From the IMG/VR virus record IMGVR_UViG_3300036791_000553, positions 1 through 49,760 of that record: DNA of 49,760 nucleotides, one strand, 5' to 3'. The position numbers and the translations under genes are program-made. Positions 2,075 to 48,113 of this stretch are shown here, piece after piece (positions within the stretch are counted from its first letter, which is position 1; each line of letters opens with the position of its first letter). The notes under the pieces were generated by a model. It was not told where the DNA came from, did not search any database, and saw nothing but the letters and a program-made list of their open reading frames with translations. This DNA is from a virus.

Positions 2075-2530
2075 GTGTCGGTCGTTAATCCCGGGCCACC
2101 GCCCAGTGGGCAGACCGTCCTGGTACTCAGCGCGATGGGTGTACCGCTGTACTCGGCGCGCGGTCTATCGCAGACGCTGGTGCCGATCGATGCTTCCGCA
2201 AACATGCGCCGCTCGATTAATGGCGTGCTGACGGACGTCGCGCACAGCCAATTTCGCAAGTACAAGTCGGTCATCACCTGCACCGATATGCGGGTGCCGG
2301 CCGCTGACGGTATCTGGCCAGGCATGACGCTGGTGGTCGATTGCGTTTCCTTCCTCAGCTATCCGGTTGGCGGCACGGCGCAGCGCACTGTCGTGTCTGG
2401 CAGCTCCTTCACCGAGAGCGGATTTGTGTTCTATCGTCCACGCTTGACCATGCTGGTGACCCACAGCACGGTGCAGACCGACGAATGGGCGGCAACGGTG
2501 CCTTGGGAGTTGGATCTTGAAGAGTGCTAA
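2075..2530 (+). CDS. Conserved phage tail protein, 151 aa
   Basis: Starts at a GTG immediately after the tape measure stop, which argues for translational coupling. The sequence (for example SARGLSQTL near residue 28 and FRKYKS near residue 60) resembles a small conserved protein that sits directly behind the tape measure in prophages of Rhizobiales; this is from memory of the family, not from a search. It is mostly beta-rich with no membrane segment. Its position between tape measure and the large tail-tip protein suggests a distal-tail or baseplate-hub component. The exact role is not known to me. An HNH gene has inserted directly behind it. Confidence 0.65.
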   Translation: MSVVNPGPPPSGQTVLVLSAMGVPLYSARGLSQTLVPIDASANMRRSINGVLTDVAHSQFRKYKSVITCTDMRVPAADGIWPGMTLVVDCVSFLSYPVGGTAQRTVVSGSSFTESGFVFYRPRLTMLVTHSTVQTDEWAATVPWELDLEEC

Positions 2531-2531
2531 T

Positions 2532-3191
2532 ATGAATTACCAAAAAATCTACGATCAATTTATTGCTGACCGCAGACTCAAAGAAAGTCTATTGGCAGCG
2601 CCGTATGATCGGCACCACATCCTGCCAAAGTGCTTCGGTGGTACAAATACCGCCGAGAACTTGATCGCGCTGTCTTTTGCGGATCATCTTTTTGCACATC
2701 TTCTGCTGGCTCAAATCTATCGCGGCAAGATGCGATACGCCGCACAAGTTATGCTGAACAGAGTTCCTGGCACTTGCGGGAAAATCGCGCGGCGGCAGTA
2801 TGGCTGGGTTCGCGCTCAACACGCTCGTGAGACGGCATTATGGCAAACGCAGCGGATGCAAAATCCTGAACTGCGCAAGCGGACTGCTGATGCGCTAAAG
2901 GGCAAGCCAAAATCAGCGGAGGCAATTGCAAAAAGATCGATCTCCCGTCGCGGTAAAAAGGCTTCAATGGAAACACGTGCAAAATTATCCGCCGCACATA
3001 TTGGCAGAAAGCTATCGCCTGAACACGCTGCCAATATCGCAGCATCTAGAAAGGGGCATATCAAAACAGACGCGCATAGATTAGCTCTCTCGCTTGCGGC
3101 CGAGCGCGATTGGAAAAAACGTCTGGCACAGGGTTATGTCATACCTAGATGTGCGCAGACTGGCAGGCTCGCCAGCAAACCAACGGTGTAA
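2532..3191 (+). CDS. HNH homing endonuclease with NUMOD3-type DNA-binding repeats
   Basis: I chose ATG 2532, one base after the upstream stop and with AGAG at suitable spacing, over the in-frame TTG at 2517. Residues 26-56 carry an HNH fold: the DRHHILP motif, an Asn at 43 (AENL) and His at 52 and 56. From about residue 105 to 180 there are several copies of a short Lys/Arg-rich helix-turn motif (KGKPKSAE, RGKKASME, IGRKLSPE), the NUMOD3 pattern that binds DNA in intron- and intein-type homing enzymes. It is a free-standing mobile gene wedged between two tail genes. It would cut phage copies that lack it. Its base composition is less GC-rich than its neighbours, which fits recent transfer. 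Confidence 0.85.
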   Translation: MNYQKIYDQFIADRRLKESLLAAPYDRHHILPKCFGGTNTAENLIALSFADHLFAHLLLAQIYRGKMRYAAQVMLNRVPGTCGKIARRQYGWVRAQHARETALWQTQRMQNPELRKRTADALKGKPKSAEAIAKRSISRRGKKASMETRAKLSAAHIGRKLSPEHAANIAASRKGHIKTDAHRLALSLAAERDWKKRLAQGYVIPRCAQTGRLASKPTV

Positions 3192-8426: not shown

Positions 8427-9458
8427 ATGCTCGCCGGGGTCTTTGGGGAAGAATTGCTGCTGCCTCATGCTGGGCATGGTGACTTATTCATCGATATCGA
8501 TTCGTTCCCATTGGCAACGCTCGGCGGCAACTTCGACAGTCTGCTCGTCGGGCAGGAGGCCTTTCCAGATCAGGACAATATCGGATCGGTGCTTGTCGAC
8601 GTCGCTGGATATGTGCTGCTCCAGACCGTCACTGATGCTGACAGCATTCCGGCCTTTACCAGCCAATTAAGCGGCGCTCCTATTGCGCCATTGATCGTGA
8701 TCGATGGCGATAATTTCTATGGGCCAATCGCCACAGGCCGCACGCTGGCTCCATTGTTGTTCGCCGATAATGATGGAATCACTTCTCCCAGTCTTGGCCT
8801 GACCATTGCGATTGCGGCTGTCGTTGATGCGGATATCGTCAACCCACAAGTCGTGGACCTCGGCAACGTCCGCCACTTGCTGTCGAGTGTTATTGTGAAC
8901 GACGATGCTATCACAGCTGATGCCATTGGCAGCGCAATATCATTTGGACTGCTTACCGATGTCGATGCTTTTTATGCACCCGCCAGGATCAACCGGATAT
9001 TGCCTGCCGTCTTTGCCGACAGCGAGACATTCGGCGCAGTACTCATTGCGGCCCCACTCAATCCGAGCACGTTCAGCGATACGGAAGTCATTTACCTGCT
9101 TGATACCATTCAGCCGGGAACACTTCGTGTTCCGCTCATGGTGGATAGCGATGCGATCTACAGCATCTTCCTTCCGAAGGTCTTTACACCGGGTCTGTGG
9201 ATTGAGGCTGACAGCATCGCAGCCGCCGGCACAGGTGCCGGGATTGGCCCCAGCGCACTTACCGATGTTGAGTCGTTCTATACGCCAATTGCCACCTCGG
9301 GGGCGACAACGTTGCTGGCGGCAGCTGTGCCTAGCGCGGATATCATATTCGCCCCGACAATTCCGGCCATTCAAACGTTCACCGCTTCAGGCGTGTTCAC
9401 GACTGCGGCAGGCTTGCTTGTGACCCCACCATTCACGCTCACCTTCATAACGATGTGA
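8427..9458 (+). CDS. Asp-rich tandem-repeat protein, 343 aa (short relative of the 958-aa repeat protein)
   Basis: Almost the whole protein consists of about 13 degenerate repeats of roughly 22-25 residues with the core pattern hydrophobic-x-D-x-D-x-hydrophobic-Y/F-x-P, for example TDVDAFYAP, VDSDAIYS, TDVESFYTP and IDGDNFYGP. The same repeat builds the C-terminal two thirds of the protein at 42869-45745. The pattern suggests a beta-solenoid or stacked fibre, and the alternating Asp residues could bind divalent cations. There is no signal peptide. Its place between small Cys proteins and a large fibre-like gene suggests a tail fibre or decoration. The repeat family is not one I can name. Confidence 0.6.
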   Translation: MLAGVFGEELLLPHAGHGDLFIDIDSFPLATLGGNFDSLLVGQEAFPDQDNIGSVLVDVAGYVLLQTVTDADSIPAFTSQLSGAPIAPLIVIDGDNFYGPIATGRTLAPLLFADNDGITSPSLGLTIAIAAVVDADIVNPQVVDLGNVRHLLSSVIVNDDAITADAIGSAISFGLLTDVDAFYAPARINRILPAVFADSETFGAVLIAAPLNPSTFSDTEVIYLLDTIQPGTLRVPLMVDSDAIYSIFLPKVFTPGLWIEADSIAAAGTGAGIGPSALTDVESFYTPIATSGATTLLAAAVPSADIIFAPTIPAIQTFTASGVFTTAAGLLVTPPFTLTFITM

Positions 9459-9461
9459 GAC

Positions 9462-11240
9462 ATGGCTCTATTTGATACGACGTGGTACGTCAACTTCGGC
9501 AACGGGACCAGCACCGGTTACTATGCCGTGCCGCAGTTTGCGACCAGTCATGCGTACAATGCTGGCGATCTGATTCGTCAGTTGACCGCTCCAGCGGTAG
9601 GCAGCGAGCGGGTGTTTGTGTGCATTGTCGCCGGCACTTCGGTTGCAGAACCGACGTGGACAGTAACGCGCGGCGCCAGGAATACGAGCACGACGCCGGT
9701 ATTCCAGGAATGCACCGGCGCGAGCGCGGTCAACGGTGACGTCACTAATACGCCAAGCTGGAACACGGTCAAGGGCTTGGCAGTCACGCTCGGGCAGATC
9801 ATCAAGCGCAACAATGCCGCAAGCTATCAGATCTGCTCTACTGCTGGCACAGCTGGCAGCGGCTCTGAGCCAGCATTCTCCGATACGGCTGGTACCACAA
9901 CAGTTGACAACACTATCACCTGGACATCGCTTGGCGTTGTGAGCAACTTTATCGGCGGCGGTGCCCCGCATGCTCGCCTGACCAATGCCATGACCGCAAC
10001 GTGGGCGGCGGCTGGAAACAAGGTTTATGTTGCGGACAGCAGTGCTGAAACTGGCACGGCAGGCATTACTCTTCTCGGCGCTGGGACTGCAGCTGTCCCC
10101 ATCCTGGCTCTCTGCAACGCGCACGCCGGAAACTATCCGCCACAAAGCACGGACATCACCACTGGAGCGACGATCACCAACTCCGGTGCGTTTAGCTTTA
10201 CTGCGGTGGGCCTGTATGCCTATGGTGTCAATTTCATTTGTTCCGGGTCAAATAGCATAACCTTGGGCAATGGCGCCCTAGGTTCATTGCAGAGGTTCGA
10301 CAGTTGCACCTTCCAGCTTTCCGTTTCAGGCGGAACTCAAGTCGGCTTTGGGACAAATCTTTCTAACCTCGGTTATACTGAGTTGTACAATTGCCAATTT
10401 AAGTTTGCTAGCACTGCCCAGCAGGTCCATTTTTTGACTGCAACCGTTATATTCAAGAGCAGCACTACGTTTTTGATTGCTGGCGGATCGATCCCATCGG
10501 CCGCCATCGGAGTAGGACAAAACAATAACCCAGCCGGATGTACCGCCTTCTTCGAAGGTGTGGACTTTAGTCAAATCAACACATCTCCACTGTTCACGCA
10601 CTTCAGCCAGGGGCCTGTGTGCAACGTTGTTTTCAAGGATTGCAAACTGAACGCAGCCACGACGCTGTCAAATACGCCGCCATTGCCCCAGGGCATCGTG
10701 CACGGAATACGCTGTGACAGCGCGGGAACAAACTATCAATCCAGCAAATTCACCTACGCGGCGACCGAGACAACCGAAATATCGATCACGCGCGTGGGCG
10801 GCGCCACGGATGGCGTGCAGACGCAAAGCCGCAAGATCGTGACGACTGCCAATTCCAGTTGGCAGTTCCCCTACATTATGCAGCCACTGGCAATTTGGAA
10901 TGTAAAAACAACCTCGACTACTGTGACATTGTTCGGAACAATCAACTCGGCGGCACTGCCAAACACCGATGATATTTGGATGGATGTCGAGTACTTGGGC
11001 GATTCGGCCTCGCCGCTCGGCTCCGTGGCCACTACCACCAAAGCCAACGTCCTGGCGGCCAGCGTGGCAAACACGACGGACAGCAGCACATGGAACGGGG
11101 GCGGATCTGGTGCAGGATGGTCGCCGTTCAAAATGGCCGTCACTATTACGCCAGGGCAAGTGGGACCAATTACGGTCTATGTCAAAGCGGCGAAGCCAAC
11201 AACAACATTCTACATCGATCCCAAGCCAGTCATCACATGA
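9462..11240 (+). CDS. Large fibre / beta-helix-type receptor-binding protein candidate, 592 aa
   Basis: Starts 4 bases after the repeat gene. The N-terminal 40 residues contain NFGNGTSTGYYAV, an anchor-like segment. The remainder is Gly/Ser/Thr/Asn-rich with many short beta-strand repeats (for example FDSCTF, YNCQFKF, FKDCKLN), the spacing expected of a right-handed parallel beta-helix as in tailspike proteins. The C-terminal 90 residues (from about DIWMDVEYLG) form a separate jelly-roll-like end. It is probably the main host-binding spike or fibre. No catalytic residues are assigned. It is the last gene of the tail operon before mobile and accessory genes. Confidence 0.6.
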   Translation: MALFDTTWYVNFGNGTSTGYYAVPQFATSHAYNAGDLIRQLTAPAVGSERVFVCIVAGTSVAEPTWTVTRGARNTSTTPVFQECTGASAVNGDVTNTPSWNTVKGLAVTLGQIIKRNNAASYQICSTAGTAGSGSEPAFSDTAGTTTVDNTITWTSLGVVSNFIGGGAPHARLTNAMTATWAAAGNKVYVADSSAETGTAGITLLGAGTAAVPILALCNAHAGNYPPQSTDITTGATITNSGAFSFTAVGLYAYGVNFICSGSNSITLGNGALGSLQRFDSCTFQLSVSGGTQVGFGTNLSNLGYTELYNCQFKFASTAQQVHFLTATVIFKSSTTFLIAGGSIPSAAIGVGQNNNPAGCTAFFEGVDFSQINTSPLFTHFSQGPVCNVVFKDCKLNAATTLSNTPPLPQGIVHGIRCDSAGTNYQSSKFTYAATETTEISITRVGGATDGVQTQSRKIVTTANSSWQFPYIMQPLAIWNVKTTSTTVTLFGTINSAALPNTDDIWMDVEYLGDSASPLGSVATTTKANVLAASVANTTDSSTWNGGGSGAGWSPFKMAVTITPGQVGPITVYVKAAKPTTTFYIDPKPVIT

Positions 11241-37001: not shown

Positions 37002-37934
37002 ATGTTTAATGACGCTCAGTCAGCGTTAAGCTTTGTGATCGCGCAAGGTGCGATCATAGAGCCACAAATTTATCGCATTCAGTATCCCGACATCCAATAT
37101 CCGAACCTCGTGCCGATCGTAACTGAAGGCGACGAGTGGGCAAAGGCTGTGATCTTCTTCAGCCTGGATCGCGTTGGACAAGCTACGTGGTTCAATCACA
37201 TGAGCGACGATGTGCCATTCGCCGACATCGTGCGCGGCCAATTCCAGCAGCCGTTGGAAATGGCGGCGGTCGGCTACTATTGGACCATCGAAGAAGTGGC
37301 GCAAGCACAGCGCACCAACATCAACTTGCAAACCGAGCGCGCTGCCGCGGCATTCCGTGCCTACGAAGAGTTCATGGAGCGCATCACCTTCTTCGGTGAT
37401 ACGACCAAGAATTGGACCGGGCTCACGAATGACGGCAATGTCACCATCGTGCCAGCAACGGCAGATGGTACTGGCTCGAGCGCACTGTGGTCGACCAAGA
37501 CTGGTGACCAGATCATTCGCGACGTCAATCAGATCCTCACCGGCATCTACACCGGTTCGGGAACGGTCGAAATGGCGGATACGTTGCTGGTGTCGCCGGC
37601 TAACTTCACCACCATGGCGACGACGCGCCTGACAAACACTGTCGCAAGCGCGTTAGGATGGTTGCAGGAATACAACAGCTACTCGGCTCTGAGCAACGGC
37701 ACGCTGACGGTCAAGGCGGTGCGCGGCTTGGAGACGGCTGGTGCCGGCGGCGTCTCGCGCGCGATCGCATACCGCAACGATCCGCAAATCCTGCGTTTGC
37801 ATGTGCCAATGCCGCACAAGTTCCTCAACCCGATGCAGGTCACCCCGCTGCGCTACGATATCCCCGGCATCTTCCGCACGGGCGGCATCGAAATCAGGCG
37901 GCCAGGCGCAGTGCGCTATTTGGACGGGATCTAA
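37002..37934 (+). CDS. Major capsid protein (DUF2184 type)
   Basis: 310 residues after AAAGGA. Typical blocks are EGDEWAKAVIFFSLDRVGQATWF, GYYWTIEEVAQAQ, FFGDTTKNWTGLTN, TLLVSPANFTTMAT and HKFLNPMQVTPLRYDIPGIFRTGG. This family is the HK97-fold capsid of many rhizobial and other siphophages. The next small gene starts 36 bases later. It is the most abundant virion protein by expectation. Confidence 0.85.
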   Translation: MFNDAQSALSFVIAQGAIIEPQIYRIQYPDIQYPNLVPIVTEGDEWAKAVIFFSLDRVGQATWFNHMSDDVPFADIVRGQFQQPLEMAAVGYYWTIEEVAQAQRTNINLQTERAAAAFRAYEEFMERITFFGDTTKNWTGLTNDGNVTIVPATADGTGSSALWSTKTGDQIIRDVNQILTGIYTGSGTVEMADTLLVSPANFTTMATTRLTNTVASALGWLQEYNSYSALSNGTLTVKAVRGLETAGAGGVSRAIAYRNDPQILRLHVPMPHKFLNPMQVTPLRYDIPGIFRTGGIEIRRPGAVRYLDGI

Positions 37935-38445: not shown

Positions 38446-39081
38446 ATGGCTAATGCCGTTTACCCACTTTTTAAGCAGTCGCTTCTAACAGAAGCGGACG
38501 CTAACAAGTCGCTCAATCAGACCGGTAGCAACGCGCCCTACGCCGCGCTGGTCACCACGTCGAGCGGCTACGTCTACTCGGCGAGTCATCAGTTCTACAC
38601 CTCGCTGACCAACATCGTCGGCACGCCGCAGCCGATCACCACACCCACCGTGGTCAACGGCACGTTCGACGGTGATGACGTCACCTTCACCGCCGTCAGC
38701 GGCACCGTCGTCGGCGCCATCGTCATCTATCGGCAGAACGCCGGCGCCAACACGACATGGCGGCTGACGCTGTATGAGGACACGAGCGTGACGGGACTAC
38801 CAGTCACGCCTAATGGCGGGAACATCGTTATTACTTGGAATGCTTCTGGAATTTTCACCTTGTGTTCACTGTCACGAAAGCGTAATGTCGTGGAGGTTGG
38901 TCGGCATGGCCCGGTCGGCGTCTACGAGTACTCGTATGTCGGAGACGACTGTGCCAGCCGCTATCGAGGATTTATGGCACATGAAGTCAAAGAGTACGTT
39001 CCAGAAGCGGTCCAAGCGTTCCACGGCGTTGACTACGTCAACCTCCCGCTCGCGTTTGATCATCTGGAAATTCGTCCATGA
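38446..39081 (+). CDS. Head-module fibre-like protein with S74-type C-terminus, 211 aa
   Basis: Residues 1-141 match a virion protein known in rhizobial phages that usually ends at the block NGGNIVITWNASGIF plus one or two residues. Here the frame continues through a segment of about 65 residues (SRKRNVVEVG...YEYSYVGDD...GFMAHEVKEYVPEAV...VDYVNL) that resembles the S74 (endosialidase chaperone) domain, an intramolecular chaperone of fibres. The catalytic Ser is present (SRKR) but the usual Lys five residues on is Val, so autocleavage is doubtful. The end overlaps the HNH gene by about 100 bases. Confidence 0.6.
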   Translation: MANAVYPLFKQSLLTEADANKSLNQTGSNAPYAALVTTSSGYVYSASHQFYTSLTNIVGTPQPITTPTVVNGTFDGDDVTFTAVSGTVVGAIVIYRQNAGANTTWRLTLYEDTSVTGLPVTPNGGNIVITWNASGIFTLCSLSRKRNVVEVGRHGPVGVYEYSYVGDDCASRYRGFMAHEVKEYVPEAVQAFHGVDYVNLPLAFDHLEIRP

Positions 39082-39727
39082 GGATGGTGAATGGTGGATC
39101 AAGAACGGATCCACCGGCGCTCGTCACAGAGCACGTGTCGCAAATTGCCTGACTTGTAATAAGCAATTCAGGGATTACCCGCACGGCAAGACTGAGTTCT
39201 GTTCGGAGAATTGTCGGCGCGTGAACTGCGCGCGATGCGGCAAGCGTTTCCGGCCGGAAAGCGCTCGGCATAAATTCTGTTCCTTCGAATGCAAGCAAGG
39301 TACGAATACTTGCGAGCATTGCAGGAAAGAATTTGTGCCGAAGAAGAACACTAAAAATAGATTCTGCAGCAAGGAATGCTTCTATGATGCTACAAGTCCA
39401 GTCGGGTCGGTCATCAATGATCCAAGCGGATATACCTTAACGAAGACTCCGCCAGGAACTCCAGGGATCAAACTTGCGAGCATGGGCCGCTCGCATTGGA
39501 TGTGGACGCATCGTTACGTGATGCAGCAAAAGCTTGGGCGTCCGTTGCTCAGGACCGAGCGCGTTCATCACATCAATCGTATTAAGAGCGACAATCGTCC
39601 CGAAAACCTAGAAATATGGGACGGCGGTCATCCTCATGGTATGCGTAAGAAGGACAAGCTTAAGCAATTCACAGTCGCTGATCTTGAAGATGAACTAAAA
39701 CGACGACGAGGAAACAGTGAACCTTGA
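38981..39727 (+). CDS. HNH endonuclease with Cys-rich zinc modules, 248 aa
   Basis: The start is uncertain: ATG 38981 is used here, but the first 35 residues overlap the S74-like end of the upstream gene in another frame and look non-native; TTG 39056 is an alternative. The middle contains three zinc-finger-like modules (CLTCNKQF, CARCGKRF, CEHCRKEF with matching CxxxC partners). The C-terminal part is an HNH core (RVHHINRIKSDNRPENLEIW). It is a mobile nuclease inserted in the head-fibre cassette. The stop overlaps the next gene by 11 bases. Confidence 0.75.
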   Translation: MKSKSTFQKRSKRSTALTTSTSRSRLIIWKFVHEDGEWWIKNGSTGARHRARVANCLTCNKQFRDYPHGKTEFCSENCRRVNCARCGKRFRPESARHKFCSFECKQGTNTCEHCRKEFVPKKNTKNRFCSKECFYDATSPVGSVINDPSGYTLTKTPPGTPGIKLASMGRSHWMWTHRYVMQQKLGRPLLRTERVHHINRIKSDNRPENLEIWDGGHPHGMRKKDKLKQFTVADLEDELKRRRGNSEP

Positions 39728-40046: not shown

Positions 40047-40738
40047 TTCTGCTCACGAGCACGTCGGACAAGCTGCAGGTGATCACGTCGGCTGCGGCGA
40101 CCATCGATGTGCATGCCAGTTGGGTGGATAATGCCGCGAGCACAATCACGCCGGGGCGGACCAACACCGCTATCACGACGGCGACTACGACTGATGTTGT
40201 TGCCGCTCCTGCGGCATCCACGCAACGCAACGTCAAGACGCTGCACGTACGCAACACGCATGCCACACTATCGTGCGATGTGACCGTGCAGCATACTGAC
40301 GGGACGCATACCGTTCAGTTGCACAAGGCCACGCTGCCTGCTGGTAGCGCGTTGGAATATATCGACGAGGCCGGGTTTTTGGTCGTTGGCGTGGGCTCGC
40401 CACCATTGGCGCGGCTGGATGTAGCCGATCAACTGATTGCCGGCGGCGCCAACGTCTCATCGCTCAGCCTGACGACAGGCAGCATCACGCTTGATTGCGG
40501 GGCCAGGCCGACGCAGTACATCACCAACAACGGCGCGTTTACCATCACCGCTCCGAGCAATGACGGTTCCTGCATGCTGCTGGTAACGAACGGCGCATCT
40601 GCGGGTACGATTACCTTCAGCGGATTCACCATGGCAAATATTGGTGACCCGTTGACTACTACGAACACAAGCAAGTTCAGCGTGTTTATCTGGCGCATCA
40701 ATGGTGTGACCGGATATCGCATCGCGGCACATCAATGA
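40043..40738 (+). CDS. Fibre-like structural protein, 231 aa
   Basis: ATGA coupling to the upstream gene. The N-terminus (MILLTSTSDKLQVITSAAATIDVHASWVDN) is an anchor segment known from structural proteins of rhizobial phages, from memory. Residues 60-110 form a beta-sandwich-like block (NVKTLHVRNTHATLSCDVTV), and the C-terminal half (NNGAFTITAPSNDGSC...FSVFIWRINGVTGYRI) resembles fibre end domains. It probably decorates the virion. Confidence 0.55.
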   Translation: MILLTSTSDKLQVITSAAATIDVHASWVDNAASTITPGRTNTAITTATTTDVVAAPAASTQRNVKTLHVRNTHATLSCDVTVQHTDGTHTVQLHKATLPAGSALEYIDEAGFLVVGVGSPPLARLDVADQLIAGGANVSSLSLTTGSITLDCGARPTQYITNNGAFTITAPSNDGSCMLLVTNGASAGTITFSGFTMANIGDPLTTTNTSKFSVFIWRINGVTGYRIAAHQ

Positions 40739-41340
40739 TTCCAGCCTTCAGTCCGGTGATGATTGTGCCGCCTGTGCCGCCTACTACCTGGGATCCGACA
40801 GGAAAGGGGACTCTTGTTACGTTATCTAATGGCAACTTGGATGCGACGTCTTCCACTACATGGTCAGGAGTGAGATCAACAAGTGGTAAAACCAGTGGGA
40901 AATGGTACTGTGAAGTAAGAATTGTCACTGTCATAGCAAGTAATATCTTTATTGGAGTGATGAATAACGACACGGCCGGCGGTGCGAGCATGGATGTACT
41001 ATCTACCCCGCAAGTTGGCCAAGTTCGTGATGATGGATTTAATGCTTCCAGTTCGGGATTTGCTATTTCTGGTCTTTCACCGGCGTTGGGTTCATTGGCC
41101 AATAATGACATAGTTCAAGTAGCGGTGGATGTAAGTAACAAAATGGCATGGCTCGGAACCAATAATATCTACACTGCATCTGGCAATCCCGGAGCTGGCA
41201 CTAATCCAACATGGACTTGGACTTCTGCTTATACGATATTCGTGGGTGCCACTTTGGGCGCCAACCCTTTTATTCGCATCCAACCCAATGCTGCGGTTCA
41301 AACCTTTACGCCACCCACCGGCTTTAGTGCTTGGAGTTGA
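40735..41340 (+). CDS. SPRY-domain-like virion protein, 201 aa
   Basis: ATGA coupling. From about residue 40 the pattern follows a SPRY domain: TSGKWYCEVRI, IFIGVMN, VGQVRDDG, DIVQVAVDVSNKMAWLGTNN and NPGAGTNPTW, in the right order and spacing. SPRY domains in phage fibres bind surface ligands. It sits in the unusual cassette inside the head module. Confidence 0.65.
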   Translation: MIPAFSPVMIVPPVPPTTWDPTGKGTLVTLSNGNLDATSSTTWSGVRSTSGKTSGKWYCEVRIVTVIASNIFIGVMNNDTAGGASMDVLSTPQVGQVRDDGFNASSSGFAISGLSPALGSLANNDIVQVAVDVSNKMAWLGTNNIYTASGNPGAGTNPTWTWTSAYTIFVGATLGANPFIRIQPNAAVQTFTPPTGFSAWS

Positions 41341-42868: not shown

Positions 42869-45745
42869 ATGGCCATCACCCTGGTTGCTGGCCAGACCGC
42901 TGTTACCGAGGTTGCCAGCAACGTCACCACCGCAACGGTCACTCTTCCTAACAATCCCACCCCTGGAAATCTGGTTGTCGTTCTATTTGGCGTTTCCAAT
43001 AGCGGCATCACGATCACATCACTCAAGGATGGTGCCGCTACTCCTAATAATTACACTCTGACATCCAAAACCCCATTTCAAAATACAACGACTCACGGGG
43101 GGGCCGCCAATACCACAGGTATCGGTTATCTGGCCAACACGCCTGCCAGTGCCACCAAGAGTATTACGGTTACAATTTCCATTGCGGCGCATATAGATAT
43201 CTGGGCAGCGGAATTTACCGGAGCTGCAACCTCTTTAACGCTTGAGAATGATGCGACGGGTACTGACCCCGGCAGTGCTGGCACAACCATCAATGTCCCA
43301 TCGTATACTACGACGAATGACGGAGATCTGCTGGTTGCTGTCTGTTCTGTCAGCGGGAGCGTTTCTTCGGCAAACAGTCCGTGGACGGAAATCGCGGGAA
43401 TTCCGGCCAGTGGTGATGGCGCAGAATATACGATCCAACCCACGCATGGAGCGCAGGCAGTAGGCTGGACTGCCAGCTCAAGCACCTGGGCTTCAATTCT
43501 TGCGGCATTCAAGGCGGCGACCGCTGCTGTCACCGACATCGGCGGTGAATCAAGAGCACGGGGGCCGCTTCGCGAATATCGCGCTCGTCCTGGTCGTCAT
43601 CTGTTCGACCGTAGTTTTGCCGGTGACCTTGGCTCGCCGACACAGACGCTGACTTCGGCTTTTGTCGATAGCGATGATGCAATCCCTGCACCTGTGGTCG
43701 TTGCCAGCATCTCATTGGCTCCGGGAGCGGTTTCTAGTGACGATTCGATTGTCGGGGCAGATGTTAGTCTGCCTGGGGCCGGGATTCCTGGTCTCAGCAT
43801 TTACGAGCCGTACTACCGGATCGAGGGCTGGTTCAACGATGCGGCGCTCATGCGCGCTGCGTGGTTTGATCGCGATCAGGCTGATGTGCTCGGTCCTGCC
43901 ACGCTGGCGCCAGGCTTGGTTGCCGTTGACGACGCGATCTATGCGCCGACTGCAGTTGCCACTGCGACGTTGGTATCGGCGGCAGTTGCATCTGATGATG
44001 TTTTCCGCGTCCCGGCCGTCTCGGCGACTGCTGCGCTACTGCCGCAGATCGTCGCCGCCGATGATGCAATCTATGTTGCCGCAGTCAGCCCGCTTCTTGT
44101 ACCGAGCCTCATTGGCAGCGACGATGCTGTTTCGGCACCGAGTGTTTCCAGCACGGCTAGTCTGCTGCCGGGGTTGGTTACAGATGCGGATGTGATCCCC
44201 GCGCCCAGCGTCTCCAGCCTGACAACGCTGCAGCCGCAGTCGGTTCCAGACACAGACGCGTTCTACATTCCAGTTGCCAGCGCGAGTGCGAGGCTGCTGC
44301 CAGCCATAGTCACAGACGGTGATGTGATTTCGGCGCCGAGTGTAGTCAATACAACGATTGCACTGCCAGGCCTCGTCACCGACACTGATGTCTTTCTAGT
44401 TCCGGCCATTGCGCCATTGGTGACGCTGCAGCCGGGAGCGGTTGTCGACGCCGATGGTTTCTACGCGCCCGTAACAAGCGCAACTGCTGGAATTCTGCCA
44501 TCCCTCTGGGCAGATCCTGACACGTGCTATGTTCCTTCTGCCGCTGCGGGGGCGGTTGCGCTGGCTCCGACGCTCTATGTCGACGGCGACACCATTCCGG
44601 CTCCCGTTGCGTCTGCAGTACTGGCGCCAGCGTCTTACGCCGATGCTGATAGCGTCCCTGCTCCGACCGTATTGCTCTATACCCAGTTTCTCACGCCATC
44701 GGCTGTCGCATCGGATGACGCTTTCTACTCGCCGGGGATCGTTGCTGGCGGCTCGTTGCTGCCGATTAGTGTTTACATCGACGTAGACGTGCTTCCTGCT
44801 CCAGCCGTTGCGCCTGGCGCAGTGGTGCTGGCGCCGCAGTTGTGGCCTGACGTTGATGCCTTCTTCGCTCCGATCACTGCAAGCACCAGCACGCTGCTGC
44901 CGGGGTTGGTCACCGACGCGGATGTAGTCTTTGCCGCCACCGTAGCTGGTGGCGCTTCGGCAATTGCGCCGAGCCTCGTGGTCGACCCCGATGCTTTCTA
45001 CGCAGCCAGCGTTCAGCCTGGAAGCGTCACGCTGCATCCAGGTTTGGTCACTGATCTTGACGTTGTCTCGGCTCCATCGATCGTCAGCGTGACTGACTTA
45101 TCTCTCGCCCTGGTCGTGGACCAGGATCAAATCTACGGCCCGGCTTTCACGGTTGGTGCTGCTCCGCTCAATGCAGCGCTGTATGTCGATGCTGACAGCT
45201 TTGGCGTACCTTTCCTTGGTGCGGGCGGCATAGTGGTGGCGCCCAATTTGGTGGCGGATAATGACATCGTTGCCGCGCCTGCGGTTGCGCAATTGGCCTA
45301 TCCGCTTGGCATGCAGCTGTATGTTGACTCGGACGCCATTCCGGTCGCCAACGTCCTGGCCACCATCGGCATCACGGCGGCATTCGTTGTCGATGTCGAT
45401 CAGTTCTATGCCGCCGGCGTGGTCACCGGGACTCTCGCGCCCGCGCGGGTGGTGGATCAGGATGCATTCTATGCGGTTCAGACCAGCATGGCCCTGGGGC
45501 CTTCGCGGGTTATCGATCGGGACGCGATCTATGTAACCAACTCCGCTGGCGGCATCGCGTCGATCAAGCATGGCCTGACTGGATCGGTGATCTATCCCAA
45601 TCCAGGTGCCAGCGTAACAGATCCGAGGCACATGCTGGGTAGCATGGGTGACCGTGTTCTGACAGGAAGCGCGCCGGAACGCGGTCTTACAGGCAGTGCC
45701 ACTGGCAAGCCACATCTGACGGGATCAGTCAAAAAGGCAGCATGA
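42869..45745 (+). CDS. Giant Asp-rich tandem-repeat protein, 958 aa
   Basis: Residues 1-220 are two beta-sandwich-like domains (LPNNPTPGNLVVVLFGVSN, NDGDLLVAVCSVSG). From about residue 255 to 930 there are about 27 tandem repeats of roughly 22 residues with the core L-x-x-D-x-D-x-F/I-Y-x-P-x-V (for example LVTDADVIPAPSV, LVVDPDAFYAASV). The C-terminal 60 residues hold four LTGS motifs. No signal peptide or membrane segment is present. The repeats recur in the 343-aa protein at 8427. The predicted shape is a long rod or beta-solenoid, possibly cation-stabilised; the role (capsid fibre or adhesin) is inference from position. Confidence 0.6.
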   Translation: MAITLVAGQTAVTEVASNVTTATVTLPNNPTPGNLVVVLFGVSNSGITITSLKDGAATPNNYTLTSKTPFQNTTTHGGAANTTGIGYLANTPASATKSITVTISIAAHIDIWAAEFTGAATSLTLENDATGTDPGSAGTTINVPSYTTTNDGDLLVAVCSVSGSVSSANSPWTEIAGIPASGDGAEYTIQPTHGAQAVGWTASSSTWASILAAFKAATAAVTDIGGESRARGPLREYRARPGRHLFDRSFAGDLGSPTQTLTSAFVDSDDAIPAPVVVASISLAPGAVSSDDSIVGADVSLPGAGIPGLSIYEPYYRIEGWFNDAALMRAAWFDRDQADVLGPATLAPGLVAVDDAIYAPTAVATATLVSAAVASDDVFRVPAVSATAALLPQIVAADDAIYVAAVSPLLVPSLIGSDDAVSAPSVSSTASLLPGLVTDADVIPAPSVSSLTTLQPQSVPDTDAFYIPVASASARLLPAIVTDGDVISAPSVVNTTIALPGLVTDTDVFLVPAIAPLVTLQPGAVVDADGFYAPVTSATAGILPSLWADPDTCYVPSAAAGAVALAPTLYVDGDTIPAPVASAVLAPASYADADSVPAPTVLLYTQFLTPSAVASDDAFYSPGIVAGGSLLPISVYIDVDVLPAPAVAPGAVVLAPQLWPDVDAFFAPITASTSTLLPGLVTDADVVFAATVAGGASAIAPSLVVDPDAFYAASVQPGSVTLHPGLVTDLDVVSAPSIVSVTDLSLALVVDQDQIYGPAFTVGAAPLNAALYVDADSFGVPFLGAGGIVVAPNLVADNDIVAAPAVAQLAYPLGMQLYVDSDAIPVANVLATIGITAAFVVDVDQFYAAGVVTGTLAPARVVDQDAFYAVQTSMALGPSRVIDRDAIYVTNSAGGIASIKHGLTGSVIYPNPGASVTDPRHMLGSMGDRVLTGSAPERGLTGSATGKPHLTGSVKKAA

Positions 45746-46455
45746 CAGACATTCGGCAGAACTTCTCGTTGATTGCAGGCGACGACGTCGATGTCGATTA
45801 TACCATCACGCCGCCGCCTCCGACCCCGATCAATCTGACTACTGCCAATTTGACCTGGAAAGCATTTCCTCAGGTTCGCGGAGTCGCCGACAAGACACAG
45901 CCGGTCATTGCGAAAGCGAGCGGTGATGGCGGCGTCGAGGTGACCGACCCTGGCAATTACTTGTTTACGGTGCATCTACTGAGCGCCGATACTCTGGGCA
46001 CATTGGCCGGCAATTACTATTACGAGACGGTGGTGGTGGACGTCGATAATAACAATCGGCGATCCACGATAACCGTCGGGACGATGACGGTGATAGATAC
46101 CGCCGATCCTCTCAATGTCATTGCTCTCAAGTCGATGTTTCCCTCGTTGGCAACTGCCGATGATGCGACGTTGCAGACGGCCCTCGATGAAGCTGCATTG
46201 TTCGTGGACGATACCTGGGCAGTGCAGGACATCACTGCGGCAACATTTTACTTGTCTGGCCATTTCATAACGGCCGCGCAGGCGACGTCAGGCGGAGGTC
46301 AGCTGGTAACGTCGGAGCGCATCGGCCAGATCGCGATCAACTATGCAACGGCAACGGCAGCCACGGGCGCATATCCGAGCTTGTCGACGACAAGCTTCGG
46401 GCAGATGTTTCTGGCGCTGATGCGCCGCAATAGTCCCGGCATTGCGGTGGTGTAA
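45742..46455 (+). CDS. BppU-like domain fused to DUF4054 head-completion domain, 237 aa
   Basis: ATGA coupling to the repeat protein. Residues 1-115 look like a BppU/Ig-like domain (RQNFSLIAGDDVDVDYTI, TTANLTWKAF), while the C-terminal 120 residues (LKSMFPSLATADDATLQTALDEAALFVDDTW...) match the DUF4054 head-tail connector family. The usual protein is only the second part. It may close the capsid neck and at the same time carry the cassette attachment. Confidence 0.65.
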   Translation: MTDIRQNFSLIAGDDVDVDYTITPPPPTPINLTTANLTWKAFPQVRGVADKTQPVIAKASGDGGVEVTDPGNYLFTVHLLSADTLGTLAGNYYYETVVVDVDNNNRRSTITVGTMTVIDTADPLNVIALKSMFPSLATADDATLQTALDEAALFVDDTWAVQDITAATFYLSGHFITAAQATSGGGQLVTSERIGQIAINYATATAATGAYPSLSTTSFGQMFLALMRRNSPGIAVV

Positions 46456-46793
46456 TGGACTACAGCGCCGAGATCAGGATCGCCGACCGTCTGATCAGCA
46501 AGTACGGCGCGCCAGCCGTCTTGCGGCGGAATACTGGAGATCGGATGTGCGTTGCCTTCATCTCGGAATACTCGCCGCAGGAGCGCATGGGCAAGGTGAT
46601 AAACCAGACCGACCGCAAGGCGCTGGTATCGCCTGTCGGCCTGGCGGCCGCTCCGGACAGTGAGCAGGATCGCTTGGTGACGCTCGATCCGGCCACCGGT
46701 TTGGAACTCGAGACGCTGCGCATCATTGCACCGATCGGCAAGATGGCGCCAGCGGGCGTCGTGGTATATTTTGAATTACAGCTTCGCCGATGA
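46455..46793 (+). CDS. Head-tail joining (neck) protein, 112 aa
   Basis: The start overlaps the upstream stop by one base (TAATG). The protein is small and beta-rich (GAPAVLRRNTGDRMCVAFISEY, TLRIIAPIGKMAPAGVVVYFELQ). Position between the DUF4054 head completion and tail terminator genes indicates a neck or head-closure role. Confidence 0.6.
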   Translation: MDYSAEIRIADRLISKYGAPAVLRRNTGDRMCVAFISEYSPQERMGKVINQTDRKALVSPVGLAAAPDSEQDRLVTLDPATGLELETLRIIAPIGKMAPAGVVVYFELQLRR

Positions 46794-47266
46794 TGGACAA
46801 GCGCGAGCTCATCCTTGAACGACTGCTGGCATTGCTAGGTGCGGTGAATGGCACGGCTGATCCGCTCAACATATTCCGCAATCGCGCCGAGATACCGATC
46901 GAAAAACTGCCGGCACTGGTGTTGCTCGATGGCAAGGAGGATCTGAAGTATCCAGATCTGCCGCATACGCGCGGTGGTGTGCGGGTGTCTGCCGTGTTCG
47001 ACCTCAAGCCGCAAGTGTTCATCGTGCTGCGGCCACGCGATGACATCAACAATGTGGGCGTCGGCGAAGAACTGTCCGGGCTGCGCATGCAGGTGATCAA
47101 GATATTCACTCAGGACGATCAGTTGATCAATGGTCTGCTCGGCAGCAATGGCGAGGTCATGTATCTCGGCCATGAGACTGACCTGCAGACCGGGTCGACA
47201 GTGCTCGGCCAGATGCAGCTGAACTTTCGGCTGTCCTACGTGCTGAATCCAAGCGACTTCAACTGA
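46790..47266 (+). CDS. Tail terminator protein candidate, 158 aa
   Basis: ATGA overlap with the upstream gene. The sequence (RELILERLLALLGAVNG, PALVLLDGKED, VFIVLRPRDDINNVGVGEELSGLRMQVIKIF) has the alpha/beta pattern of tail terminator/gpU-like proteins and sits right before the major tail gene, which is the usual place. It would cap the tail tube where it joins the neck. Confidence 0.65.
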   Translation: MMDKRELILERLLALLGAVNGTADPLNIFRNRAEIPIEKLPALVLLDGKEDLKYPDLPHTRGGVRVSAVFDLKPQVFIVLRPRDDINNVGVGEELSGLRMQVIKIFTQDDQLINGLLGSNGEVMYLGHETDLQTGSTVLGQMQLNFRLSYVLNPSDFN

Positions 47267-47279
47267 AGGAGAACAAGCC

Positions 47280-48113
47280 ATGACTGTTGGTGTCACCAGC
47301 CCGGACGTCGGCAATCTTGCCGTTGGTAAGGGTTTTATCCTGTTCAAGCCAACTGACCAATCCAGCTTCTTCCATGTTGGCAACGTGCCGACTTTCACCT
47401 TCACGCCGAAGGCGACGGTGCTGGATCATTATACTGCGATGGCTGGCAGCAAGATCAAGGATCTCAGCATCATCACCGAGAAGTCCGGTGAGGTGAAGAT
47501 GGATCTCGAAGAACTGACCGCCCAGAACCTGGCAATGCTGGTGATGGGCACAGTCGGCACTGATGCCAGCACTCCGGCTAATCCGCAGGTACAGATCTTC
47601 TCACGCAGTTCGCTTGTCGGAGAATTGAAGTTCTATGCCACCAATGAGGTCGGTCCGCGCTGGTACGTTGATCTGCTCAGCGTCAACCTGACGCCGTCCG
47701 GCGATTTCTCCCCGATCATTGATAACGCCTTCATGAAGATGCCCATCACCGGCTCGGTGCAGGCGATCGATGGCGTATTTGGAACCATGACGCTGATGGG
47801 GCCTGTCGGCGCAGTAGCGCCGACGAACGTGCTGTTGCCGACGATCACTGGCATGAGCGGCACACCGGCCGGCACGCCTCATGCTGCTGACGTGCTCACT
47901 GCCAACATCGGTGCGTGGGTGGGAGCCACTTCCTACACGTATGCCTGGCAGAGCGGCACCAGTGGAACGTTCACACCTATCGTTGGACAAACCAGCAAGA
48001 CCTACACCGTGGTGGCTGGTGATACTGGGAAGGCGTTCGAGGTGATAGTGACCGGAGTGAATGCGAAGGGCAGCACGCCGGCGACCAGTGCACCCACTCT
48101 CGCAACAGTATAA
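47280..48113 (+). CDS. Major tail protein with C-terminal Ig-like domain, 277 aa
   Basis: AAGGAGA precedes ATG 47280. Residues 1-180 are a tail-tube fold (NLAVGKGFILFKPTDQSSFFHVGNVPTFTFT, VKMDLEELTAQNLAMLVMG). Residues about 185-277 are an Ig-like domain (YTYAWQSGTSGTF, GQTSKTYTVVAGDTGKAFEV). Ig extensions on tube proteins are displayed on the tail surface and may help weak cell-surface binding. Confidence 0.8.
   Translation: MTVGVTSPDVGNLAVGKGFILFKPTDQSSFFHVGNVPTFTFTPKATVLDHYTAMAGSKIKDLSIITEKSGEVKMDLEELTAQNLAMLVMGTVGTDASTPANPQVQIFSRSSLVGELKFYATNEVGPRWYVDLLSVNLTPSGDFSPIIDNAFMKMPITGSVQAIDGVFGTMTLMGPVGAVAPTNVLLPTITGMSGTPAGTPHAADVLTANIGAWVGATSYTYAWQSGTSGTFTPIVGQTSKTYTVVAGDTGKAFEVIVTGVNAKGSTPATSAPTLATV

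Follow-up and report, generated by a model that had tools for sequence, protein, structure and literature searches.

The window, by which we mean the whole stretch of 49,760 nucleotides analysed (IMG/VR virus record IMGVR_UViG_3300036791_000553, positions 1 to 49,760), has the gene complement of a siphovirus-like tailed phage, with portal, protease, capsid, the repeat protein described below (protein A), adaptor, closure, terminator, tail and tape measure. The tape-measure match is divided between the contig ends (49205-49760 and 151-2073), and the record is therefore probably a circularly permuted, near-complete genome. On the plus strand, the genes encode the major capsid protein (37002-37934, phrog_264), a SPRY-like protein of the head block compared by blastp with its relatives (40735-41340; a domain homologous to it matched SPRY with E=0.0013, below the Pfam cut-off), protein A (42869-45745, 958 amino acids), a head-tail adaptor (45742-46455, DUF4054/phrog_302), the head closure protein Hc1 (46455-46793, phrog_161), a tail terminator (46790-47266, weak match to phrog_4204) and the major tail protein with an Ig-like domain (47280-48113, phrog_807). 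The start codon of the adaptor at 45742 overlaps the end of the A gene by 4 bp, and the N-terminal part of the adaptor (aa 3-119) is an Ig-like domain of the phrog_1084 type, which is the proposed dock for A (see below). The tail-fibre block contains, on the same strand, protein B (8427-9458, 343 amino acids), and the tail block a 592-residue protein assigned to a head decoration cluster (9462-11240, phrog_20658). Two HNH/homing endonuclease genes (38813-39727 and 2517-3191) lie amid the structural genes. The C-terminus of the protein encoded after the capsid block at 38446-39081 matches the last ~70 residues of the virion/ejection PHROGs 6121 and 4287, and gives the impression of an intramolecular chaperone tail.

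Protein A was divided, on the basis of its ORF and of an iterated 20-column PSSM, into an N-terminal beta-sandwich-like domain, a shaft of 27 repeat units (aa 259-893) and a C-terminus with LTGS motifs. The units fall into a pair (units 1-2, aa 259-302, 43643-43774) and a main array of 25 (aa 344-895, 43898-45553; part of it modelled with AlphaFold), separated by a non-repeat insert of 41 residues (aa 303-343, 43775-43897). Each unit scored 17-35 bits, whereas the best scores obtained with shuffled sequences had a 95th percentile of ~8-10 bits, and the autocorrelation of Asp had its maximum at lag 22 (0.37, compared with a maximum of 0.17 in 1000 shuffles). The sequence-only reading of this DNA, which had counted about 27 Asp-rich repeats in a 958-residue protein, was thus correct in the ORF and in the number of units; the period of about 22 residues also held, but the spacing is not constant as had been stated, because it ranges from 20 to 23 (mostly 22 and 23) and is interrupted by the insert. 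At the nucleotide level no tandem repeat was detectable in the A gene, which indicates that the copies are old. The C-terminal module (aa 896-958, 45554-45742), a proposed anchor, has LTGS motifs at aa 903, 931, 940 and 950 with a spacing of ~10 residues, and is a second repeat as had been noticed earlier. The N-terminal domain (~aa 1-230, 42869-43558) was compared in an alignment of 11 proteins with 14-26% identity, and is probably a beta-sandwich. Domains weakly similar to it precede the repeats in contigs L014, L029, L032 and L045 and in Mwe-JY26, whereas in mycobacteriophage proteins the similar domain sits after the repeats. Protein B, in which the same reading had recognized the repeat of A, consists of repeat almost from end to end and has no LTGS module; the PSSM analyses counted 6-9 units in it and 25-27 in A, the number in B being at least 9 with the iterated PSSM and ~14 by eye. 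Both proteins conform to the family pattern L-x-P-x-L-[FYIV]-x-[DNS]-x-[DNEQ]-x-F-[YFG]-x-[PA]-x-V with a spacing of 20-25 residues.

Searches with A and B against Pfam, NCBIfam and PHROGs, and with A against the PDB sequences, gave no meaningful match, in agreement with the earlier statement that no named domain has this pattern. Neither tblastn of the whole of A or of a native stretch against phages, nor a native-protein search of the related loci, returned anything. Native queries failed because A is a divergent member, and it was a consensus query that opened the family: it led to 23 viral loci, and a paired-motif DNA pattern to 18 loci, some of which overlapped with the consensus loci and a few of which were without an array. 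The repeat was found in about 30 IMG/VR contigs, in two bacterial records (an alphaproteobacterial MAG and a Mesorhizobium contig that also has portal and scaffold genes) and, among annotated phages, in the cyanophages Pam2 and Mwe-JY26. A query in the S-x-E form returned 57 phage records; in 55 of these, which come from Mycobacterium phages and for the most part bear the annotation 'minor tail protein', the repeat has diverged to 'GIPSAEAFG'. With a family matrix 472 units were located in 39 proteins (0.15 hits per 1000 aa in shuffles). The PHROG minor tail clusters 8501 and 13352 were matched by proteins of L037 (3e-14) and L027 (1e-9) and by Pam2_68 (4e-9). A, like B, matched neither cluster. 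By sequence comparison, the repeat is a widespread module present in many unrelated phages. A plasmid of Promineifilum (Chloroflexota) encodes a 1057-residue repeat protein; in this replicon (Candidatus Promineifilum breve plasmid III, 40.8 kb, locus L049), which is probably a phage-plasmid, a gp77-like gene follows the gene of the 22-unit protein.

Several candidate relatives were rejected. Pentapeptide-annotated Streptomyces proteins (30% tblastn match) were weak, compositional matches, a Klebsiella phage match (E 0.05) was attributed to composition or chance, and sub-cut-off Pfam matches of relatives to eukaryotic families were disregarded. The consensus also matched the stopper of roseophage R4C (PDB 8gtf chain M, E 0.0078), whose N-terminal SIFTDPDVFGEPVTW resembles one repeat unit; because of its partly helical state in the virion and its contact with the adaptor (PMC10276861), this extension was not accepted as a homologue.

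Bulky hydrophobic residues occupy positions 3, 8, 14 and 19 in 90-100% of the units, position 5 is mostly Pro, position 10 is D, N or S, and position 12 is D, E, N, Q or S. Pairs at positions 10 and 12 among the 472 units included D.D (225), N.Q (56), N.N (54), S.E (52) and N.S (20). In arrays mixing D and N, 70 units had D.D, 12 had N combined with N, S, Q or A, and 2 were discordant; as the pairs shift jointly, the two positions are coupled. AlphaFold models were obtained for aa 408-741 of A (alignment of 18 rows) and for eight units of the L005 protein (47 rows), from which some rows of phage or plasmid records had been left out. Both models were all-beta and periodic, with low confidence (pLDDT 62 and 59, pTM 0.50 and 0.52), and nearly every unit of the L005 model contained four short strands, the same ones from unit to unit. 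Fold searches with these low-confidence models in PDB and viral structures gave no significant match; the top PDB matches were mostly solenoids, all with E > 0.06. Together with the hydrophobic positions, the four strands per unit suggest a shaft, for which the best guess on the basis of the models is a beta-solenoid in which each unit forms one coil of 22-23 residues. The beta-solenoid of the sequence-only reading accordingly gained from the regular short strands per unit seen in both models, and lost from their pLDDT of 59-62.

Two other views of the shaft were considered. The fold could arise between chains, as in the trimeric beta-spiral of the adenovirus fibre type: most phage fibres are trimeric, the length of the repeat falls within the range of such shafts, and the single-chain models had low confidence. 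However, hydrophobic residues spaced 5-6 positions apart (3, 8, 14, 19) fit a four-sided coil and not alternating strands, and the strands are identical from unit to unit in the model, which makes an inter-chain fold doubtful in our opinion. The two folds would differ in length, since a solenoid would rise by ~0.5 nm per unit (~13 nm for 27 units) and a beta-spiral by ~1.3 nm (~35 nm). Within the solenoids, the pentapeptide repeat (Rfr) type did not fit, because A has no match to its Pfam profile and no 5-residue period. The other view concerns calcium, which the Asp pairs had been suggested to bind. If the pair chelated Ca2+ and drove folding, as in RTX beta-rolls, the prevalence of D.D (see above) and the joint change of positions 10 and 12, as might be seen for two ligands of one site, would be accounted for. 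Yet entire arrays have N.N, N.Q or S.E in place of the Asp pair, and no RTX/hemolysin-type profile of Pfam was matched, so that we regard a calcium-dependent repeat as very unlikely. Because Asp is replaceable as a pair, the family can do without it and hence without calcium; judging from these substitutions, Ca2+ binding as a general rule of the repeat is unlikely. The polar pair would rather be a coupled structural element, in which a cation may be bound when the pair is D.D but need not be.

Three phages (G001-G003) whose capsid proteins are 63-69% identical to that of the window were compared with it. Each of the four genomes has a repeat gene immediately ahead of the head-tail adaptor gene, and a further one within the tail-fibre block. 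The C-terminus with LTGS-like decapeptides was present in four of the four neck copies and in none of the five tail-block copies, and by this comparison it is specific to the neck copy and marks the neck site. Homologues of the 9462-11240 protein belong to the head block in G002 and G003, whereas in the window and G001 they belong to the tail block. Domains homologous to the 40735-41340 protein occur in G002 and G003 as parts of tail-block proteins, where they are fused to the repeats. Since the same modules are found in the head block in some phages and in the tail block in others, fibre modules move between the two sites. In G002 the major capsid ORF (L060:873-2249) is preceded in frame by ~150 extra residues, possibly a fused scaffold or the result of a different true start.

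In unrelated phages the repeat gene was also found next to connector genes. It adjoins a phrog_442 adaptor in L011, L024 and L029, and other connector genes in L032 (Hc1, terminator), L046, L023 and L005; a portal or scaffold gene is nearby in L045, L027 and L016. In Mwe-JY26 the repeat gene is situated between the capsid and tail genes, and the next gene encodes a PF23148 'GP4 fiber-tail adaptor gp77' (Pfam 3.1e-27, PDB 8jou_D 6.3e-8). In L024 the head-tail adaptor itself contains a gp77-like domain as a fusion (4.5e-7), and with adaptor HMMs of our own, half of whose seed sequences came from the loci tested, a gp77-like domain was found after the repeat gene in L005, L006, L008, L038 and for the Promineifilum protein (Cfx). 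The phrog_1084 Ig-like domain follows the repeat gene in the window clade, L007 and L022. The type of the C-terminus correlates with the type of adaptor: the repeat proteins before gp77-like adaptors (n=7, to which JY22 with another repeat may be added) end in R-x-V/ExR decapeptides, and five of the six before phrog_1084 in LxG[ST] decapeptides, a pairing that represents 2-3 independent lineages, as the four window-clade phages are one lineage. No crossover between the two types was seen in the carriers compared. Neither adaptor was seen in the carriers L032, L027, L014, L016 and L037, and in Pam2 and the mycobacteriophages the repeat gene is in the tail region. In BcepMigl, a GP4-like phage, the gp77 homologue has a pectin-lyase-like protein on one side and an ordinary tail fibre on the other, and the decapeptide is absent.

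Some further arrangements were observed at these loci. The Microcystis phage Mae-JY22 (L066:744-1421) encodes a protein with another, His-rich repeat of 21-22 residues (V-x-D-A-T-H-A-H-x-x-D-x-x-x-L) and an ExR decapeptide tail, three genes ahead of a gp77-like adaptor, and in Itty13 an ExR tail is found beside a gp77-like gene. A 796-residue protein of L023 (L023:6803-9193) starts with a phrog_161 head-closure-like domain and also matches a lysophospholipase/esterase PHROG; apparently it is a connector protein fused to an enzyme.

We infer, with somewhat better than even confidence, that A is a neck or collar fibre. Its LTGS decapeptides would dock on the product of the following gene, the head-tail adaptor, at its N-terminal Ig-like domain, the 27 repeats would stack into a stiff shaft, and the N-terminal sandwich at the outer end would be the likely ligand-binding tip, so that the fibre may serve adsorption; B would be its paralogue in the tail-fibre block, with the same shaft and different ends. 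This reading follows from the position of the repeat gene beside connector genes in the window, its relatives and unrelated phages, from the next gene being often of a fibre-adaptor type (phrog_1084 beside A, gp77-like in relatives) that the C-terminal type tracks, and from the restriction of LTGS to the neck copies together with the swapping of modules between head and tail-fibre blocks. The matches of relatives to 'minor tail protein' clusters, and the hydrophobic positions with the four strands per unit, also speak for it. Counting against the neck fibre are the low AlphaFold confidence and the fold searches that gave nothing significant, the few lineages, the seed overlap of the HMMs, the carriers without either adaptor, the genes in tail regions and the case of BcepMigl, and also that neither virion proteomics nor images of a phage carrying the repeat were found.

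The place of A on the virion could be a different one. It might be attached to the capsomers or the vertices of the capsid shell, in the manner of the head fibres seen in flagellotropic phages; its gene does lie between capsid and connector genes, podovirus-like contigs have the repeat gene between portal and scaffold, and the alphaproteobacterial phage 7-7-1 has capsid fibres whose protein identity is unresolved (PMC12796354). We think this unlikely, because the gene that overlaps that of A encodes a connector adaptor with an Ig-like domain and the adaptor type tracks the C-terminal type. It is more improbable still that A is a side tail fibre or a minor tail protein on the tail tube or tip, as the mycobacteriophage annotation would have it. 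Homologues in the tail-gene blocks of mycobacteriophages and Pam2, and the location of B, agree with such a role, but the A gene is kept outside the tail block in the four related phages and its C-terminus is absent from B. Extending the neck-fibre reading beyond A, we tentatively consider it possible that one promiscuous shaft repeat serves both the neck and the tail fibres in phages of alphaproteobacteria, cyanobacteria and actinobacteria, that decapeptide and adaptor form a two-part docking code, and that the exchange of D.D, N.N/Q and S.E as whole pairs along the solenoid gives metal-dependent and metal-independent versions of a single fold.

Head and neck fibres have been seen on many phages, and the proteins forming them are often unknown. 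One repeat profile combined with the adaptor neighbour would allow such fibres to be recognized in numerous phage genomes that lack annotation. How fibres are matched to the neck could be tested simply through the adaptor/C-terminus pairing, and the coupled polar pair is a clean case in which to study how a repeat protein replaces a charged ladder by a neutral ladder. Repetitive shafts are already known among phage fibres; the repeat of A and the matching of C-terminus and adaptor are undescribed in the literature searched, no description of either having been found in the libraries or publications consulted. Searches of cryo-EM papers on Douge and other mycobacteriophages brought up no passage on the repeat.

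Among known systems, the RTX beta-roll and the pentapeptide solenoids resemble A in building single-chain beta-solenoids from short polar repeats, but have another period and consensus, and A has no Pfam match. The capsid fibres of Agrobacterium phage 7-7-1 (PMC12796354), long, flexible and located in the head region of an alphaproteobacterial phage, may be compared with A by analogy only; phage searches returned no repeat match in the 7-7-1 record. The minor tail proteins of mycobacteriophages (PHROG 8501, 13352; Konstantine gp36, Marvin gp88, Cosmo gp45, Kumao gp32) have the same repeat of 20-23 residues in diverged form and, like A, a sandwich-like domain in the same protein and a virion-type gene context. 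They differ from A in having 3-8 units (27 in A), S.E in place of D.D, the reversed order of domains, a location in the tail block and no LTGS C-terminus, and A does not match their PHROGs. Pam2_68 and XAI96042 of Mwe-JY26, both annotated as 'hypothetical protein', have clear repeat arrays as in A. Pam2_68 is unlike A in its N.N pair and its tail-region gene, whereas XAI96042 shares with A the sandwich, the D.D repeats and a gene between the capsid and tail genes. An adaptor homologous to gp77 of the Ralstonia podophage GP4 (PF23148, PDB 8jou) directly follows the repeat gene in JY26 and other carriers, and in the window phage its place is taken by the phrog_1084-type Ig-like domain. Mwe-JY26 combines ExR decapeptides with a separate gp77-like adaptor, and the window phage LTGS with phrog_1084.
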